The translations under genes were made by a program, and so were the position numbers. 24,222 bases of DNA, from positions 1 through 24,222 of the IMG/VR virus record IMGVR_UViG_3300009184_000213; one strand, written 5' to 3'. The DNA comes from a virus. Numbering within the stretch: position 1 is the stretch's first letter; each line of letters starts with the position of its first letter. Positions 2,949 through 20,730 of this stretch are shown here, piece after piece. The notes under the pieces were generated by a model. It saw only the letters and a list, made by a program, of their open reading frames with translations. It was not told the DNA's origin and did not search any database.

Positions 2949-3304
2949 TAATTTTCTACTTTGTTTGTATCTTTACCATTACAGTAATCACACTTTTTAC
3001 CGTAACAATCACAATCATTAGAACCACAAGGATCACAAAAACATTCATCTTCAGGAAAAGTCTCGAAACCAGTCAAATAAACAACATTTTCGCCATTAGT
3101 ATCAAAAGCAACAAGCTTATTTGTTGCCCCACAACGCCTAATAACTTTTAGTTCTGTAAGCAATTTAATGATACGTTTTTGCTCTATTTCTGCCTGTTCT
3201 TCTCTATGAGCTTCAAGCATTAAAGCAAGTGTTTCTTTAAAATGTTTTTCAGATTCTTTAGCCATGTCTAGTAGCCATGTTGGGTCAAAGTTAGGGTTAG
3301 TCAT
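2948..3304 (-). CDS. Hypothetical protein with Cys-rich C-terminus
   Basis: A 118-residue protein starting at ATG 3304 after a good AAAAGGAG ribosome site. Residues 1-55 are charged and helical, possibly coiled coil. The last third is cysteine-rich (CFCDPCGSNDCDCYGKKCDYC, with eight cysteines in a short span), which suggests one or two bound zinc ions or an Fe-S centre. I recognise no family. It overlaps the upstream gene by 8 bases and the methyltransferase start by one base, so it lies in the same operon. Confidence 0.6.
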   Translation of the reverse strand: MTNPNFDPTWLLDMAKESEKHFKETLALMLEAHREEQAEIEQKRIIKLLTELKVIRRCGATNKLVAFDTNGENVVYLTGFETFPEDECFCDPCGSNDCDCYGKKCDYCNGKDTNKVEN

Positions 3305-3488
3305 TTGTTTCTCCTTTTATCAGCGCAATGACATCATTACGACTTGTTTGAATCATTTGTGTTGTTCCACCCCAAATAAATGGCAGTCGCTCAATCAGTT
3401 GAATGATGCGCTCTTGCTCTTCACGTTTACCATTTTGATAAGCTCGTTCAATCCACTCATCAAGTTTTTTATTTTCTGCCCAAGACAT
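3297..3488 (-). CDS. Hypothetical small helical protein
   Basis: A 63-residue protein starting at ATG 3488 with AAAGGGA upstream. The sequence is charged, with a likely helix (LDEWIERAYQNGKREEQERIIQLIERL). The helix resembles the N-terminal helix of the next gene, which also carries an EEQ-E-x4-R-I-I-x-L-(I/L) pattern; the two may be diverged duplicates. Function is unknown. It overlaps both neighbours, by 20 bases upstream and 8 downstream. Confidence 0.6.
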   Translation of the reverse strand: MSWAENKKLDEWIERAYQNGKREEQERIIQLIERLPFIWGGTTQMIQTSRNDVIALIKGETND

Positions 3489-3603
3489 TTCTAATCCCTT
3501 TCTTGATGTCAGGTCTTACAAAGAACAGCCAACGATTCTTTAGTCGAAGATACTCTTGAAATACGTTGCAACCAAATTTATGATGGCCCCTGTGTTTAGC
3601 CAT
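3469..3603 (-). CDS. Small basic protein (44 aa)
   Basis: A 44-residue frame found by reading the gap left of rusA. ATG 3603 is preceded by AAAGGGA at good spacing. An in-frame ATG at 3624 would add seven residues and lies one base after a predicted transcription start. The product is very basic (MAKHRGHHKF at the start, FFVRPDIKKGIRNVLGRK at the end) and could bind nucleic acid, but no family is recognised. It is the first gene after the predicted promoter at 3632-3661 and overlaps the next start by 20 bases. Confidence 0.55.
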   Translation of the reverse strand: MAKHRGHHKFGCNVFQEYLRLKNRWLFFVRPDIKKGIRNVLGRK

Positions 3604-3631
3604 GTTTCCCTTTCTTGTTGTCATACCCCTA

Positions 3632-3661
3632 AATCTATGCCAGCAAGAACCCCAAAGTCAA
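3632..3661 (-). promoter_or_regulatory. Predicted sigma70-type promoter
   Basis: On the minus strand, -35 TTGACT (3661-3656), an 18-base spacer and -10 TAGATT (3637-3632). The predicted start near 3625 is one base before an in-frame ATG at 3624. It lies in the 78-base gap after rusA and would drive the leftward small-gene/methyltransferase block. It is a pattern match only. Confidence 0.4.
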
Positions 3662-3681
3662 TAGCAACACGCCAAAAAGAT

Positions 3682-4071
3682 TTAATCTTCTAAATGCTGC
3701 ACAATCACTTCAACACCAGTCCAACCATCAACCGAATAACGCTTATACGCATGCAAATCAACGACCCTGCTGTCATCCACAATAGCCCCACCCTTGACCA
3801 TGCCATCCAAACAACCACGCACCAATTTATCCACGTCAGGCATCACAGTTGGATAATCCCTAGAAATGGAAGAAGGCCTTGGCAGATAGAACCAAAGTTC
3901 CACTTCCAAAGCCCCATCCATAGGTTCTTCAAATAACGATTGACATTCCGTTTTAATAGCTTTACGCCAAGCAGGGAGATACTTGCTGGCTTCAACCATC
4001 CGACCATTACCCACATGCTTTTTAGATCCTTGTGGTGCTGGCAGACCTTCAACAGAAAATTTATTTATCAT
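3682..4071 (-). CDS. rusA: RusA-family Holliday junction resolvase
   Basis: A 129-residue protein with the RusA fold signature: the N-terminal motif EGLPAPQGSKK, the metal-binding acidic motif MPDVDKL (Asp79, Asp81), then GAIVDDSRV (Asp99/Asp100) and a late Lys110. RusA dimers cut four-way DNA junctions during recombination and replication. ATG 4071 is preferred over GTG 4092 because RusA proteins usually begin just before the PxPQGSK motif and because this ATG overlaps the stop of the small membrane gene upstream. Length is usual for the family. Neighbouring exonuclease and annealing-protein genes fit a recombination role. Confidence 0.88.
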   Translation of the reverse strand: MINKFSVEGLPAPQGSKKHVGNGRMVEASKYLPAWRKAIKTECQSLFEEPMDGALEVELWFYLPRPSSISRDYPTVMPDVDKLVRGCLDGMVKGGAIVDDSRVVDLHAYKRYSVDGWTGVEVIVQHLED

Positions 4072-4821: not shown

Positions 4822-5652
4822 TTATGCGCTCTTTTTGGCTAAACCAAAACCGCATTGACGGCAATTCCAAACAATGTTCCCATGTGAACAATCCTTGGGT
4901 GGGGTCAAAACAGCCTTCTGTTCCTGCTCTAAGACTTCCAACTTACGAATACGCTCTGACTCCCATAAACGCTCTAAACGGGCTTTCTCAGCCATTCTCG
5001 CATCATTCTGCTGTTCTTCTTTAGATTTAGTTCTCTCAGGCAACGGCCCATCTTCCCAACGATCACCATTCAACCAAGTAGTCGGATAAGGAATGAACTC
5101 ACCCTGCGGAAGATTCGGGTCATTAGCAAACCTGATAGCACCAGCCAAAATAGCATCATGGCTAGAACGAGCAACAGCAGACTCATAAGCTTTGACAGCA
5201 GCTCGCTTTGAAGTCCGTCTCGGATAAACACTCCAAAACTTATCGAAATGCGTATATGTTTCTATTGATGTTTCTAATGATGTTTTATACGCCAGATCTG
5301 TCACCCCTGACTTACCTAGTTTGTCACCCCTGATTACCTGGTTTGTCACCCCTGAACCTAGTCTGTCACCCCTGTCAGAAACACCAGAAATGCTAATCCA
5401 ATACTTATTCGACTTGTATTGACCCTTAGTTTCGCCACCATGAACTTCAACAACAAGCTCACCCAAATCCTGCAAATGTTTGATGTCACGTTGAATAGAT
5501 CGTTCACTAGCGTTAGCGTAACGAGCCAAAGTAGCGATAGACGGCCAAGCACCATTATCGCCATGATGATTAGCAATACCAATCAAAACCAACTTCGCAC
5601 GACCATCAGCCCGACTATTATTTAGCACAAGCGAAATCATCTCGACACTCAT
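4822..5652 (-). CDS. Replication initiator (lambda O-like organizer)
   Basis: A 276-residue protein starting at ATG 5652, directly after the upstream stop. Residues 15-88 form a winged helix-turn-helix (GIANHHGDNGAWPSIATLAR, then SERSIQRDIKHLQDLGEL), as in phage replication proteins that bind origin iterons. Residues 135-203 carry the C-terminal module FDKFWSVYPRRTSKRAAVKAY and FIPYPTTWLNGDRWED, typical of replisome organizers. A charged helix (206-248) and a likely zinc site (C255, H257, C264, C267) end the protein. The linker (about residues 90-120) is encoded by four DNA iterons, as in the lambda O gene. It probably melts the origin and loads a host helicase; no phage helicase is visible here. 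Confidence 0.8.
   Translation of the reverse strand: MSVEMISLVLNNSRADGRAKLVLIGIANHHGDNGAWPSIATLARYANASERSIQRDIKHLQDLGELVVEVHGGETKGQYKSNKYWISISGVSDRGDRLGSGVTNQVIRGDKLGKSGVTDLAYKTSLETSIETYTHFDKFWSVYPRRTSKRAAVKAYESAVARSSHDAILAGAIRFANDPNLPQGEFIPYPTTWLNGDRWEDGPLPERTKSKEEQQNDARMAEKARLERLWESERIRKLEVLEQEQKAVLTPPKDCSHGNIVWNCRQCGFGLAKKSA
5296..5376. repeat. Four-copy iteron array, putative origin of replication
   Basis: GTCACCCCTG occurs at 5300, 5323, 5345 and 5365 (plus strand), with spacings of 23, 22 and 20 bases. Flanking bases are partly conserved (ACCTAGT or ACCTGGT plus two bases before each of the last three copies). The repeats lie in the linker part of the initiator gene. Spacings are not multiples of three, so the repeat is read in different frames (RGD, SGVT). 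That implies selection on DNA rather than protein. An A+T-rich stretch (about 5225-5295) lies next to it. This matches the lambda plan, where O binds iterons inside its own gene. Confidence 0.75.
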
Positions 5653-8227: not shown

Positions 8228-8539
8228 ATGACAAACCACCGACAAATACCAGTAACACAGAAACTATTTTCTTTACTACAAGAAATAGAAGAAGTCGGTG
8301 AGACACCATGCCAAAACTTTCCAGATGCATTCTTTCCAGAACCAGGCAACGGTGGCTATCAAGACACAATCTGGGCTAAACAAATGTGTTCCGAATGTCC
8401 AGTCCTGCAAAGTTGTAGAACCTACGCTATAGAAGCAATAGAACCATTTGGTATTTGGGGTGGACTAACCCCCATAGAACGTAGAACTCATAGACGGACA
8501 GAACGAAACGCTACAGAAGCCCTTACAAGTAACCGTTAG
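8228..8539 (+). CDS. WhiB-family transcriptional regulator
   Basis: A 103-residue protein, the only plus-strand gene. It has the four cysteines of the WhiB Fe-S cluster: Cys28 (PCQNFPDAFF), Cys54 and Cys57 (MCSECP) and Cys63. These are followed by GIWGGLTPIERR (residues 75-86), the turn and basic region that contacts sigma factor and DNA. WhiB proteins occur in Actinobacteria and their phages; the best known phage member, from mycobacteriophage TM4, represses a host whiB gene and alters superinfection. Length is normal. The ATG at 8228 has no ribosome site and seems leaderless. It converges on the holin-like gene, with 27 bases between stops. Confidence 0.93.
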   Translation: MTNHRQIPVTQKLFSLLQEIEEVGETPCQNFPDAFFPEPGNGGYQDTIWAKQMCSECPVLQSCRTYAIEAIEPFGIWGGLTPIERRTHRRTERNATEALTSNR

Positions 8540-17272: not shown

Positions 17273-17842
17273 TTAGTTTATCTTAGTGACCTGAATAAGC
17301 ACATCATCACTTCTGCCCTTGACAGAAGTAAAATCATAGATTTTAGGGTTTATTCCCGTAAAGTTATAGATTCTTTGAGCCAAAGTATTAGCAACATCAA
17401 CGCTAACAACATCTTCAATAAAATACTTGCCACCGACATTTAAATAGTCCCACAAGTTATACAAAGCAGTTATTTGAGCTTCAACAGCGTGAGAACCATC
17501 ATCAATAATGTAGTCAAACTTACCTGTAACTAATTCCTTTATTTGGCTTTGCACAGTCGCATCACAAAGCAAAACTTCAAAAGTATCATCCTGCCACAGC
17601 AACCTAGACAAATCAATGTCCAAACCGACAATCCGAGAATCAGGTAAATAGTCAGCCCACATCTTTAGCGAATGACCAGCCCAAACACCAATCTCCAACA
17701 AAGACTTGTTTTTAGCTGCAGGAATGTTTTGACCATAAATTTCTATGTAACTGTGAGCCGTACCTTTATCGCCACCACAATCAGGCATTTGATAAGGCTC
17801 ATAGGCTTCCTGTAAAGTTTTCAAATGAGTTTCTGAGTCCAC
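17273..17842 (-). CDS. Class I SAM-dependent methyltransferase (sugar O-methyltransferase type)
   Basis: A 189-residue protein starting at GTG 17842, overlapping the epimerase stop by 22 bases. Motif I is LLEIGVWAGHS (48-58), then GLDID (73-77) binding the SAM ribose, and YIIDDGSH (111-118), a metal-type signature of CmcI/MycE-like enzymes that often methylate sugars on secondary metabolites and glycans. EDVV (143-146) follows. Neighbouring epimerase and glycosyltransferases suggest that it methylates a sugar on a phage or host glycan; the acceptor is unknown. Confidence 0.78.
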   Translation of the reverse strand: MDSETHLKTLQEAYEPYQMPDCGGDKGTAHSYIEIYGQNIPAAKNKSLLEIGVWAGHSLKMWADYLPDSRIVGLDIDLSRLLWQDDTFEVLLCDATVQSQIKELVTGKFDYIIDDGSHAVEAQITALYNLWDYLNVGGKYFIEDVVSVDVANTLAQRIYNFTGINPKIYDFTSVKGRSDDVLIQVTKIN

Positions 17843-18825
17843 GTCTTAGGGGTCAAATCAGACTGAATCTCAATCGGAAGATGATACTCAAACTCTTTCA
17901 CTCTAGGTCTAATCCAATCCACCAAATCACGCAAACCATCCTGCAAAGAAACAGTAGTCTCATAATTCAACAACTCACGAGCCTTATCAGAGCTACACAA
18001 TGCCACAGCCACTTCCTGCGGCCTACCAAGCACAAAAGTAGGCTCTAACTCAAAACCAATAATCTCTGCAAGTCTCTCAGCCAGGTTCAAAATAGTTATA
18101 GGTGACTCATCAGGGCCAATGTTGATTACCTGACCCACAGCTTCATCAGACTCACACGCCACCAAAATAGGTGCAATAACATCTTCAATGAAACTAAAGC
18201 ACCGTTGCTGACTACCATCACCATAAATAATTGGCTGCTTACCCTGCAACATCCTGTTAGCCATAATGCTTGCAACATTCCTAAACGGGTCATCAAACTT
18301 CTGTCTAGCACCAACAATGTTATGTGGCACAAGCACAACTAAATCAACACCATGAACCTTAGCCATGTTTTCAAGCAAACGCTCTGCCGACAACTTAGCA
18401 ATACCATACGGATCTTGTGGCTTAGGAGTCAAAGTCTCATCAAACACATTGCCACCGTTATCCCCGTAACGTGCCATAGATGACATGTAAATAAACTTAG
18501 GGACACCAGCCTTAATGCTTGCAGTCATAGCGTTCACACTTATCTGCACAGTATTCCTGACAACAAGGCTAGGGCTAAAAACACTCAAACCTTCATAAGC
18601 AGTACACGCAGCATGAATCACAAGGTCAGCACCAGTAAAAATAGGGGTAATGGCCTGTAAATCATCCAAGTCAACTTTATAGAGATGCACACCTTCAGGC
18701 ACATTCTCTAAACTGCCACCAAGCAGATTATCTATGCCACGAACCTTCCAGCCCTTAGCCAAATAAGCATCAGCAAGATGTGAACCAAGAAACCCTGCGA
18801 CACCCGTAATAACAACTAATCCCAA
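17821..18825 (-). CDS. NAD-dependent nucleotide-sugar epimerase/dehydratase
   Basis: A 334-residue extended short-chain dehydrogenase starting at TTG 18825 after AAGGAG. It has the glycine motif TGVAGFLGSH (7-16), Asp32 after strand 2 (NAD rather than NADP), SSMARYGD (115-122) and the catalytic Tyr140-x3-Lys144 (YGIAK). These are standard for UDP-glucose 4-epimerase-like enzymes and sugar dehydratases; the exact nucleotide sugar cannot be told. It probably supplies the sugar donor for the two transferases encoded just upstream. The start overlaps the GT2 stop by 10 bases. Confidence 0.88.
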   Translation of the reverse strand: MGLVVITGVAGFLGSHLADAYLAKGWKVRGIDNLLGGSLENVPEGVHLYKVDLDDLQAITPIFTGADLVIHAACTAYEGLSVFSPSLVVRNTVQISVNAMTASIKAGVPKFIYMSSMARYGDNGGNVFDETLTPKPQDPYGIAKLSAERLLENMAKVHGVDLVVLVPHNIVGARQKFDDPFRNVASIMANRMLQGKQPIIYGDGSQQRCFSFIEDVIAPILVACESDEAVGQVINIGPDESPITILNLAERLAEIIGFELEPTFVLGRPQEVAVALCSSDKARELLNYETTVSLQDGLRDLVDWIRPRVKEFEYHLPIEIQSDLTPKTWTQKLI

Positions 18826-19457
18826 GAATTTACTCTCCTTCTAATCAAACTCCATCTACCTTCATCAAACCTGCCATCAACCTGTTTCTGATTGAAATAC
18901 GAGCTATTATCGGCAAAAGTAACATTGTTTCTGTCAGTAAACTTAGAGCTACTCTTTATTGTGGAACTATTGTCATGCCCTAAAGCAAGTGGCAATCTAT
19001 CTATACGCAACCCAGCATTAGTTACCCTACGCTCATAGTCGTTATCTTCAAAATAGATAGGATGTAAAGCTTCATCAAATAAACCGATCTGTTCGACAAT
19101 CTTCTGACCGACAGCAAAAGTTTGCCAGTACGGAAAAGACTCTGCCAAAGTAACAGCATCATCTTTAGCGGTCTCCAACAAAGTCAAAGCACCAGGTTGA
19201 AACCAAGTATCTGCCGAAGTAATAAACCAGCGTGACTCAAACGGCAACATCTTGATACCTAAGTTCCATGAAGAAGCCACACCAAGATTAGTAGGCAACT
19301 CTAACCAATGAACATTTACTAAAGGATTCTCACAATAAAAATCATCTTGTATTACACCAGAGTTGTTGATGACATAAACTGTTGCTTCAACGTCAATGCT
19401 CTCTACCATACGCTTTAGCAAATCAAACCTGTTCAAAACAGGAACAATTAGTTTCAC
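18816..19457 (-). CDS. Glycosyltransferase family 2-like protein
   Basis: A 213-residue GT-A-type transferase. GTG 19457 overlaps the previous stop as GTGA, after GAAGAAG; an in-frame ATG at 19499 would add 14 residues that repeat the other gene's end in a new frame. The N-terminus KLIVPVLNRFDLLKRMVESI, then YVINNSG and LPTNLGVASSWNLGIK, is the family 2 nucleotide-sugar fold. SADTW stands where DxD is expected, and YFEDNDYERRVTNAGLRI holds the usual acidic motif. It is a short single-domain enzyme without membrane anchor. Confidence 0.82.
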   Translation of the reverse strand: MKLIVPVLNRFDLLKRMVESIDVEATVYVINNSGVIQDDFYCENPLVNVHWLELPTNLGVASSWNLGIKMLPFESRWFITSADTWFQPGALTLLETAKDDAVTLAESFPYWQTFAVGQKIVEQIGLFDEALHPIYFEDNDYERRVTNAGLRIDRLPLALGHDNSSTIKSSSKFTDRNNVTFADNSSYFNQKQVDGRFDEGRWSLIRRRVNSWD

Positions 19458-20653
19458 GCAAGTAACTTCTTCAGCAACGGAATCCAATGATTCTCCCACA
19501 CAGTCTCAACATCAAACTGCTTCACAAAATCTATGCTCGCCTGTGACCTAGTGCCACGAACCTTATACGATTCTTCCAAAGCGTTCACAATACTAGGAAT
19601 ACTAGGAACTCTCCACCAAGCGTTCTGGGCTGCATCCCAAGAAGGCTGACCATCAACAAGCCAACAATCTTCCGAAACAAGGTCAGGGGTAGCTGCCCAG
19701 TTAGAGCCAATCACTCTTGTCCCACAGGCTTGTGCTTCAATAGTTGGAACTCCAAAACCTTCACCATACGAAGGGGCAAGCATCACATCCATAGTCGTAT
19801 AGAAAGCAGCTAACGTCTCAGTGCTAATACCATACTTGTAGTCAGCCATGTTAGGGAAAATAATCTGCTCAGGTTTGATACCAAGAGACTCACACAACAC
19901 AAACAGATTCCAGCCACCAGCACCACCAAACGGGTCTGTATGCAAATAAAGTTTTGCATCAGGCTTATCCTTAGCGAAAATACTGAAAGCCATAATGTTC
20001 TCGGCAAAGGCTTTACGGTGCAACAACCCGCCAGCCTTATTAGCTGCGTTCATGCCAACAACAAAATCATTTTTATCTAAATTCATCCACTTACGAGTGT
20101 CAACACCAGCAACTTTATAAGTAGGTTTCACCACAGAAGTATCAACAGCATGCGGAACATATTCACACTCCAAACCATTCTCCTGCATCTGACGAACACC
20201 ATGCGGACTCATAGCAATAGGAACAACATTAGGTTTCTTCAACCAATCAAACACATCAGGTGGCATAGTTGCATGATCTAACGGAGTCCAAGAAGCAATC
20301 TTCGGCAAATTATCCCAAGCCTTACCCCGAAAAACCCACACGTCATAAAGCGTAATCAACAAGTCCTTCAACTTATCTTTTCTACCATTGTTTACAATGT
20401 TGGTGTGATGAACGTGATTCATAGGAGTCACATCATTGCTATAGTTTTCAAAACCACGAGCATAATGCGGTATAACACCAGCAGGAGTATTTAGCGTACT
20501 GTTACTGCCTTCTAACCCATAGTTACTCAAAGCAGCAACATCAATGCCGTCACGTTTCAAACGCTCAACAAGAAGCCCAGCCTGAATACCATAACCAGTA
20601 GGAACATACGGACTATTAGAAGCAATCGAAACAATACCCTTTAACTTTGACAT
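19454..20653 (-). CDS. GT-B (family 4-like) glycosyltransferase
   Basis: A 399-residue transferase starting at ATG 20653 after AAAGGAAA; an in-frame ATG at 20692 would add 13 residues that overlap the terminator tail. The two GT-B domains are visible: N-terminal acceptor part (SPYVPTGYGIQAGLLVERLKRDG), then VVPIAMSPHGVRQM and VPHAVDTSVV. In the C-terminal donor part, SYGEGFGVPTIEAQACGTRVI contains the E-x7-E motif. It is the first gene after the terminator that follows the capsid gene, so the cassette may have its own promoter in 20654-20690, or depend on read-through. Confidence 0.88.
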   Translation of the reverse strand: MSKLKGIVSIASNSPYVPTGYGIQAGLLVERLKRDGIDVAALSNYGLEGSNSTLNTPAGVIPHYARGFENYSNDVTPMNHVHHTNIVNNGRKDKLKDLLITLYDVWVFRGKAWDNLPKIASWTPLDHATMPPDVFDWLKKPNVVPIAMSPHGVRQMQENGLECEYVPHAVDTSVVKPTYKVAGVDTRKWMNLDKNDFVVGMNAANKAGGLLHRKAFAENIMAFSIFAKDKPDAKLYLHTDPFGGAGGWNLFVLCESLGIKPEQIIFPNMADYKYGISTETLAAFYTTMDVMLAPSYGEGFGVPTIEAQACGTRVIGSNWAATPDLVSEDCWLVDGQPSWDAAQNAWWRVPSIPSIVNALEESYKVRGTRSQASIDFVKQFDVETVWENHWIPLLKKLLA

Positions 20654-20689
20654 AGGATTTCCTTTTTCTCGTAGGTAACAATAGAATAG

Positions 20690-20730
20690 CATAAGAAAAC
20701 CCCCCTAGTGCCTACGCACACTAAGGGGGC
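20690..20730 (-). terminator. Rho-independent terminator after the capsid gene
   Basis: Minus-strand GCCCCCTTAGTG, an 8-base loop, CACTAGGGGGG, then TTTTCTT. A C5/G5 stem plus TAGTG/CACTA with one bulged base. It lies 20 bases past the major capsid stop and would limit read-through into the sugar cassette. The stem is nearly symmetric. Confidence 0.8.

Follow-up and report, generated by a model that had tools for sequence, protein, structure and literature searches.

Four exact iterons and an adjoining A+T-rich region, located inside the gene of a replication initiator, very probably constitute the replication origin of the phage and work like the origin of phage lambda. The window, i.e. the whole stretch of DNA that was analysed, spans 24,222 nucleotides. 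That the repeats are the phage origin was the core of the original prediction, and comparative data favour it through the assignment of the initiator to PHROG 270, iteron arrays in 223 of 308 relatives and the covariation of protein residues with iteron bases. The case draws on the iterons, their fixed geometry, selection at the DNA level, their location in a linker, the helix covariation and a second array, all of which are documented here at the level of sequence comparison.

Initiator gene and iterons

The window protein matched PF13730 (HTH_36) with 40.3 bits (cut-off 25, E 2.7e-10) and phrog_270, a replication initiation protein family, with 128 bits over residues 9–230 (E 1.1e-36). The predicted model comprises a winged-helix block (H3–12, H17–28, H39–45, H50–63, E66–69 and E83–86) with pLDDT values mostly about 90 or above, followed by a linker predicted to be disordered and, after residue 124, by a helical C-terminal domain. 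Its global pTM of 0.47 is expected for two domains connected by a flexible linker. Residues 2–94 of the model gave winged-helix proteins as fold matches, among them 4pql ('N-Terminal domain of DNA binding protein') and 4pt7 ('Structure of initiator'). The gene and its elements are given below, with the basis of each assignment in brackets.

4822–5652, minus strand: replication initiator gene, HTH_36 / PHROG 270, 276 aa (profile matches)
5377–5652, minus strand: winged-helix DNA-binding domain, codons 1–92 (predicted model, fold matches)
5464–5505, minus strand: recognition helix, codons 50–63, with residues 54 and 55 at 5488–5493 (predicted model, covariation)
5281–5376, minus strand: linker, predicted disordered, codons 93–124, containing the iterons (pLDDT <50 at residues 93–124)
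5365–5374, minus strand: iteron 1, CAGGGGTGAC in the coding direction (exact repeat, frame analysis)
5345–5354, minus strand: iteron 2, CAGGGGTGAC (exact repeat, frame analysis)
5323–5332, minus strand: iteron 3, CAGGGGTGAC (exact repeat, frame analysis)
5300–5309, minus strand: iteron 4, CAGGGGTGAC, adjoining the A+T-rich region (exact repeat, frame analysis)

On the plus strand, GTCACCCCTG occurs in four exact copies, with starts at 5300, 5323, 5345 and 5365 and gaps of 23, 22 and 20. The repeats noted at first, four copies spaced by 20–23 bases inside the initiator gene, are thus real, and the span originally delimited (5225–5376) takes in both the iterons and the A+T-rich stretch. With at most one mismatch allowed, just two extra matches were found in 24 kb (at 1001 and 20759), and the resulting count of six was reached by no dinucleotide shuffle of the window (shuffle mean 0.95). 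The core is not palindromic. Read in the coding direction as CAGGGGTGAC, the iterons alternate between two frames and yield RGD, GVT, RGD and GVT, and 5000 synonymous-codon shuffles of the window gene gave 0, 1 or 2 copies of the word and never four. Both results bear out the earlier argument that copies in different reading frames point to selection on the DNA. The iterons fall in the part of the gene that encodes the linker, predicted to be disordered, which joins the winged helix to the helical C-terminal domain; such a linker can be expected to be the place where the protein best tolerates a constraint at the DNA level.

Iteron arrays and recognition helix in relatives

A first search yielded 20 loci with 37–100% identity. 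The relatives analysed were 308 non-redundant genes with the N-terminal domain, taken from IMG/VR, GTDB genomes and six Arthrobacter phage regions. An automatic detector found a gene-specific iteron array in the same place in 223 of them, with gaps mostly of 21–23 bp, which corresponds to about two helical turns. More than one frame (two or three) is used in 199 of these arrays and a single one in 24, e.g. in L017. Within the first set, arrays were present in 143/243 genes and in 0/120 synonymous-codon-shuffled controls; they were found in 134/176 genes with an aligned N-terminal domain versus 9/67 genes without it. Whether the repeats persist while the linker protein varies had been named as a check of the original prediction, and they do: in addition to the arrays across the 223 genes, close relatives among L001–L018 keep three or four iteron copies while differing in copy number, in linker residues and in the frame of individual copies. 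The iteron sequence is nearly uniform inside each gene and different between phages, and the gap signature 20/21-22-23 recurs with CAGGGGTGAC, CAGGGGTGTC, GGGGGGAAC and CCCCTTCGG iterons, so that the geometry is constant and the sequence varies. The array test was failed by 85 of the 308 relatives, 49 of which showed at least three copies in a relaxed, uncontrolled scan.

An inverted copy after the last iteron (6/7 or better) was present in 35% of relatives versus 8% of shuffles and 18% of spacers. A palindromic terminal iteron was rejected as a general feature, being enriched yet not general among the relatives. The linker of L068 carries GTCACCCC words that are reversed relative to other relatives, plus an inverted TGTCA/TGACA pair, and retains AACC-type words. 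A variant array with gaps of 17, 17 and 22 was observed in L612, L623, L320 and L344, which comprise Microcystis and Sphingopyxis phages and related loci.

Covariation was assessed by an unbiased scan of 86 protein columns against the iteron bases in 69 representatives, in which the pair R55–base 8 ranked top (z 9.7) and Q54–base 5 third (z 6.1). Fisher P values were 5.5e-8 for residue 55/base 8 and 4.3e-7 for residue 54/base 5 in the 69 representatives, and 5e-5 and 4e-4, respectively, in 37 stricter representatives; all are optimistic because the relatives share ancestry and are not independent. For iterons with a G-run of three, the register was given a new anchor once the first table was known, and unadjusted counts were also computed. 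Two further pairs, 52–base 7 and 39–base 5, looked strong at first and weakened to P 0.24 and 0.06, respectively, on the stricter representatives. Residues 54 and 55 fall on the predicted recognition helix 50–63. Arg55 is accompanied mostly by C at base 8, and Asn, Gln, Thr, Tyr or Leu at this position by A, while Arg54 is accompanied by G at base 5 in 9/9 representatives. The G form of the iteron, CAGGGGGGAC, is the counterpart of CAGGGGTGAC of the window; in L010, which carries R54, the same base has changed from T to G in all four copies and the spacers are similar. Among pairs of N-domains with 60–85% identity, residues 51 and 55 differ in a fraction of 0.00 (to two decimals) of the 2124 pairs with the same iteron, and in 0.23 and 0.33, respectively, of the 585 pairs with different iterons. 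At closer range, the N-domains of L163 and L028 share 88% identity, with P50A, N55R and A62E as the recognition-helix differences, and the iteron forms are GAAC versus GACA.

The rules were then applied to a held-out set of 18 named phages and plasmids outside rule-making, with registers read by eye. Arrays were accepted in nine of the 18 records and nine records failed, some with spacings of 17, 17 and 22 and some without a clear array. Arg55 is paired with C at base 8 in Vibrio 1.016.O, in Curtobacterium Root (where the word lies on the other strand) and in Bifidobacterium PMBT6 (array visible, rejected by the detector), and Tyr55 goes with A at base 8 in Bordetella PHB09 and Pseudomonas 5400. 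The rule linking R54 to G at base 5 fails in the only clear held-out case for it, a Thermobispora plasmid, and the remaining records were ambiguous or without a clear array. The residue 55 rule thus held wherever the held-out sequences were clear, and the one for residue 54 stands on less firm ground.

Initiator and DNA sites seem to vary in concert, and the covariation of residues 54 and 55 with bases 5 and 8 supports the proposal that the winged helix, originally placed at residues 15–88, binds the repeats. Joint change of specificity in initiator and origin is an old question that stems from type-specific lambda-like phages. Because protein and sites share one stretch of DNA, some 220 genes each supply a protein with its matching sites. 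Together they provide a candidate recognition code, which involves residues 54 and 55 (less surely 39, 51 and 52) and bases 5, 8 and 7, and L010 represents a case of one change common to all four sites.

A+T-rich region, second array and probable origin function

The region adjoining iteron 4 contains the following features.

5225–5289, no strand: A+T-rich region, presumed DNA unwinding element (74% A+T)
5279–5285, minus strand: second-array element 1, AAACATC, a variant of AACCATC (AACC-type array of relatives)
5267–5273, minus strand: second-array element 2, AAACATC, 12 bp on (word spacing)
5255–5261, minus strand: second-array element 3, AAACATA, 12 bp on (word spacing)

The A+T-rich stretch that had been noticed beside the repeats stands out within the fragment, as its 74% A+T is attained by a mere 0.12% of same-length windows. 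The second array of the window is a degenerate form, AAACAT, with a 12-bp period within a stretch of 80% A+T, and in most close relatives AACC stands at nearly the offset of at least one of the window's elements. Across the relatives, AACC words are strongly enriched 3' of the last iteron, with a spacing of 11, 12 or 13 bp. In the extended set, at least two AACC copies were found in 188/220 genes, and the distance between the start of the last iteron and the first AACC copy has an interquartile range of 23–27 bp. Arrays with at least three AACC copies use more than one frame in 89/94 cases; 61 genes with at least three copies were observed in the first set versus about 10 in codon-shuffled controls. 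The AACC array is largely independent of iteron sequence, was found with nearly all iteron types and occurs in 7/9 accepted held-out records. The average A+T content of relatives peaks at 0.70 in the bin 30–39 nt past the last iteron's start.

These comparisons suggest that the second array is probably an unwinding element, which would make it a predicted one for many phages with apparently unmapped origins and provide a route to origins in fragments from coding sequence alone. More speculatively, and with rather more doubt than conviction on our part, the AACC-type array may be a sequence-specific strand-capture element with a period of about one turn, conserved across phages of Actinobacteria and Proteobacteria despite iteron divergence and read single-stranded by conserved replication machinery, i.e. 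the C-terminal domain of the initiator or a helicase loader. If so, the AACC array and the rule relating residues 54 and 55 to bases 5 and 8 would constitute a readable two-part origin grammar for a large phage group.

By analogy with known origins, we infer physical binding, strand opening, capture of the second array and loading of the helicase. Each initiator molecule would bind one of the four iterons through its N-terminal winged helix and, since the iterons lie about two helical turns apart, the bound initiators would be aligned along the same side of the double helix. The resulting complex would open the adjoining A+T-rich stretch, in which the AACC-type words (AAACAT in the window phage), about one helical turn apart, would mark one strand for capture by the C-terminal domain of the initiator or by a partner. 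The helicase would be loaded last. Cumulative GC skew is uninformative on the origin because it declines over the entire fragment without turning near 5.3 kb and almost all apparent genes share a strand.

Other functions of the repeats were weighed against that of an origin. They might be operators for transcriptional autoregulation of the initiator, which is unlikely: the winged-helix fold is common to many repressors and the sites lie in the protein's own gene, but they are found about 280 nt into it and not at the promoter, in most relatives the A+T-rich second array follows them at a near-fixed distance, and the PHROG 270 family is annotated as replication initiators. Autoregulation could, however, exist alongside origin function. 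Selection for a repeated linker peptide rather than for DNA sequence has next to nothing in its favour beyond the 24 of 223 arrays with all copies in one frame, such as that of L017, whereas the 199 others read the same DNA word in different frames and hence as different peptides (RGD and GVT in the window), codon-shuffled genes encoding the same proteins are without arrays, and the linker is predicted to be disordered.

We consider it quite improbable that the repeats are bound by another protein, e.g. a host factor, instead of the encoded initiator. A GGGG core is common to most, yet not all, sampled lineages, which such a binder would account for, but bases 5 and 8 covary with residues 54 and 55 of the recognition helix of the encoded protein, also in close pairs with few helix differences such as L163 and L028. 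Slightly more improbable still is that the element is a remnant and that the genome now uses a different origin or replication mechanism; the window is a 24-kb linear fragment and origins outside it are possible, but the four copies are perfect, the gene is intact, and relatives keep both array and gene under changing sequence. A functional origin bound by its own initiator thus remains the preferred reading.

Comparison with known systems and further observations

Lambda and the window share a layout in which four iterons occupy the central part of the initiator gene and an A+T-rich region lies downstream (PMC7466680, PMC4488673), and the iteron gaps in coding order are 20, 24 and 23 in lambda and 20, 22 and 23 in the window. 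Of the proposed likeness to lambda, the layout therefore holds and the designation of the gene as 'O-like' does not extend to the protein family, as lambda O belongs to PF04492 and the window initiator to HTH_36. PF04492 (Phage_rep_O) was matched by lambda O and not by the window protein at E 0.1, although both touched PHROGs 391 and 678, and PDB sequence searches with either protein gave no matches. Comparison of the window profile with the single lambda O sequence by hhalign gave nothing significant, and membership of Phage_rep_O is therefore not claimed. In addition, the lambda iterons are inverted repeats of 18–19 bp, whereas the conserved core in the window is 10 bp long and not palindromic, and the AACC/AAACAT words of the window's A+T-rich region are absent after the lambda iterons. 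The amino-terminal half of lambda O binds the iterons, binding together with supercoiling opens the A+T-rich region, and contacts of O and P with the opened strand stabilise it for loading of DnaB (PMC4488673, PMC5043065, PMC7466680). For the proposed capture of AACC words, a precedent exists in plasmid initiators, which bind to their unwinding elements in single-stranded form (PMC4081077, as related in PMC5043065).

The Arthrobacter phages Kepler and Abidatro possess the same kind of PHROG 270 / HTH_36 initiator as the window, encoded there directly after RusA. Abidatro-like and Kepler-like initiators form a natural N55/R55 pair. Arthrobacter phages of this type carry a set of four or five repeats, with a predominant spacing of 22 bp, plus an 11-bp AACC-type array; their iterons, GGGGTGnCA or GGGGTGnAC, differ from those of the window, and no origin annotation was seen in the Arthrobacter phage regions examined. 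The Rep gene of Lactococcus phage Tuc2009 resembles the window gene in having an internal origin with short repeats in several frames, but Rep belongs to a different family (Rep_Org_C) and its repeats are CAACCA about 11 bp apart. In the Tuc2009 record (L388), the Rep gene at 3097–3879, annotated as an origin gene, shows CAACCA-like words in three frames, at intervals of 11 bp, at about nt 342–378; their likeness to the AACC array is perhaps a coincidence. The Rep protein of TP901-1 was compared by eye and by family. An origin inside the initiator gene has likewise been proposed for RepL/oriL of phage P1, where synonymous substitutions showed that an A/T-rich region matters; iterons, four of which are present in the window, are unmentioned in the main text of that report (PMC9948254).

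Origins inside initiator genes are known from lambda, from Tuc2009 (as annotated) and probably from P1 RepL, so that the kind of system is not new; the added interest lies in the second array, the candidate recognition code and the family-wide set of protein–site pairs. Within titles, abstracts and selected passages of the literature on HTH_36 origins, no description of such arrays, of a recognition code or of the second array was found; subscription papers lay mostly outside this coverage, so that novelty is unproven.

Elsewhere in the window, the translations of two overlapping ORFs on the minus strand (1739–2596 and 2388–2948) resemble the two parts of a single cytosine methyltransferase interrupted by a frame change. 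ORFs resembling a methyltransferase, a nucleotide-sugar epimerase and glycosyltransferases, likewise judged from translations, lie within the structural gene block at 17273–20692 on the minus strand. Of the early genes, apparently just one lies on the plus strand; it is WhiB-like (8228–8539), which suggests a host among the Actinobacteria.
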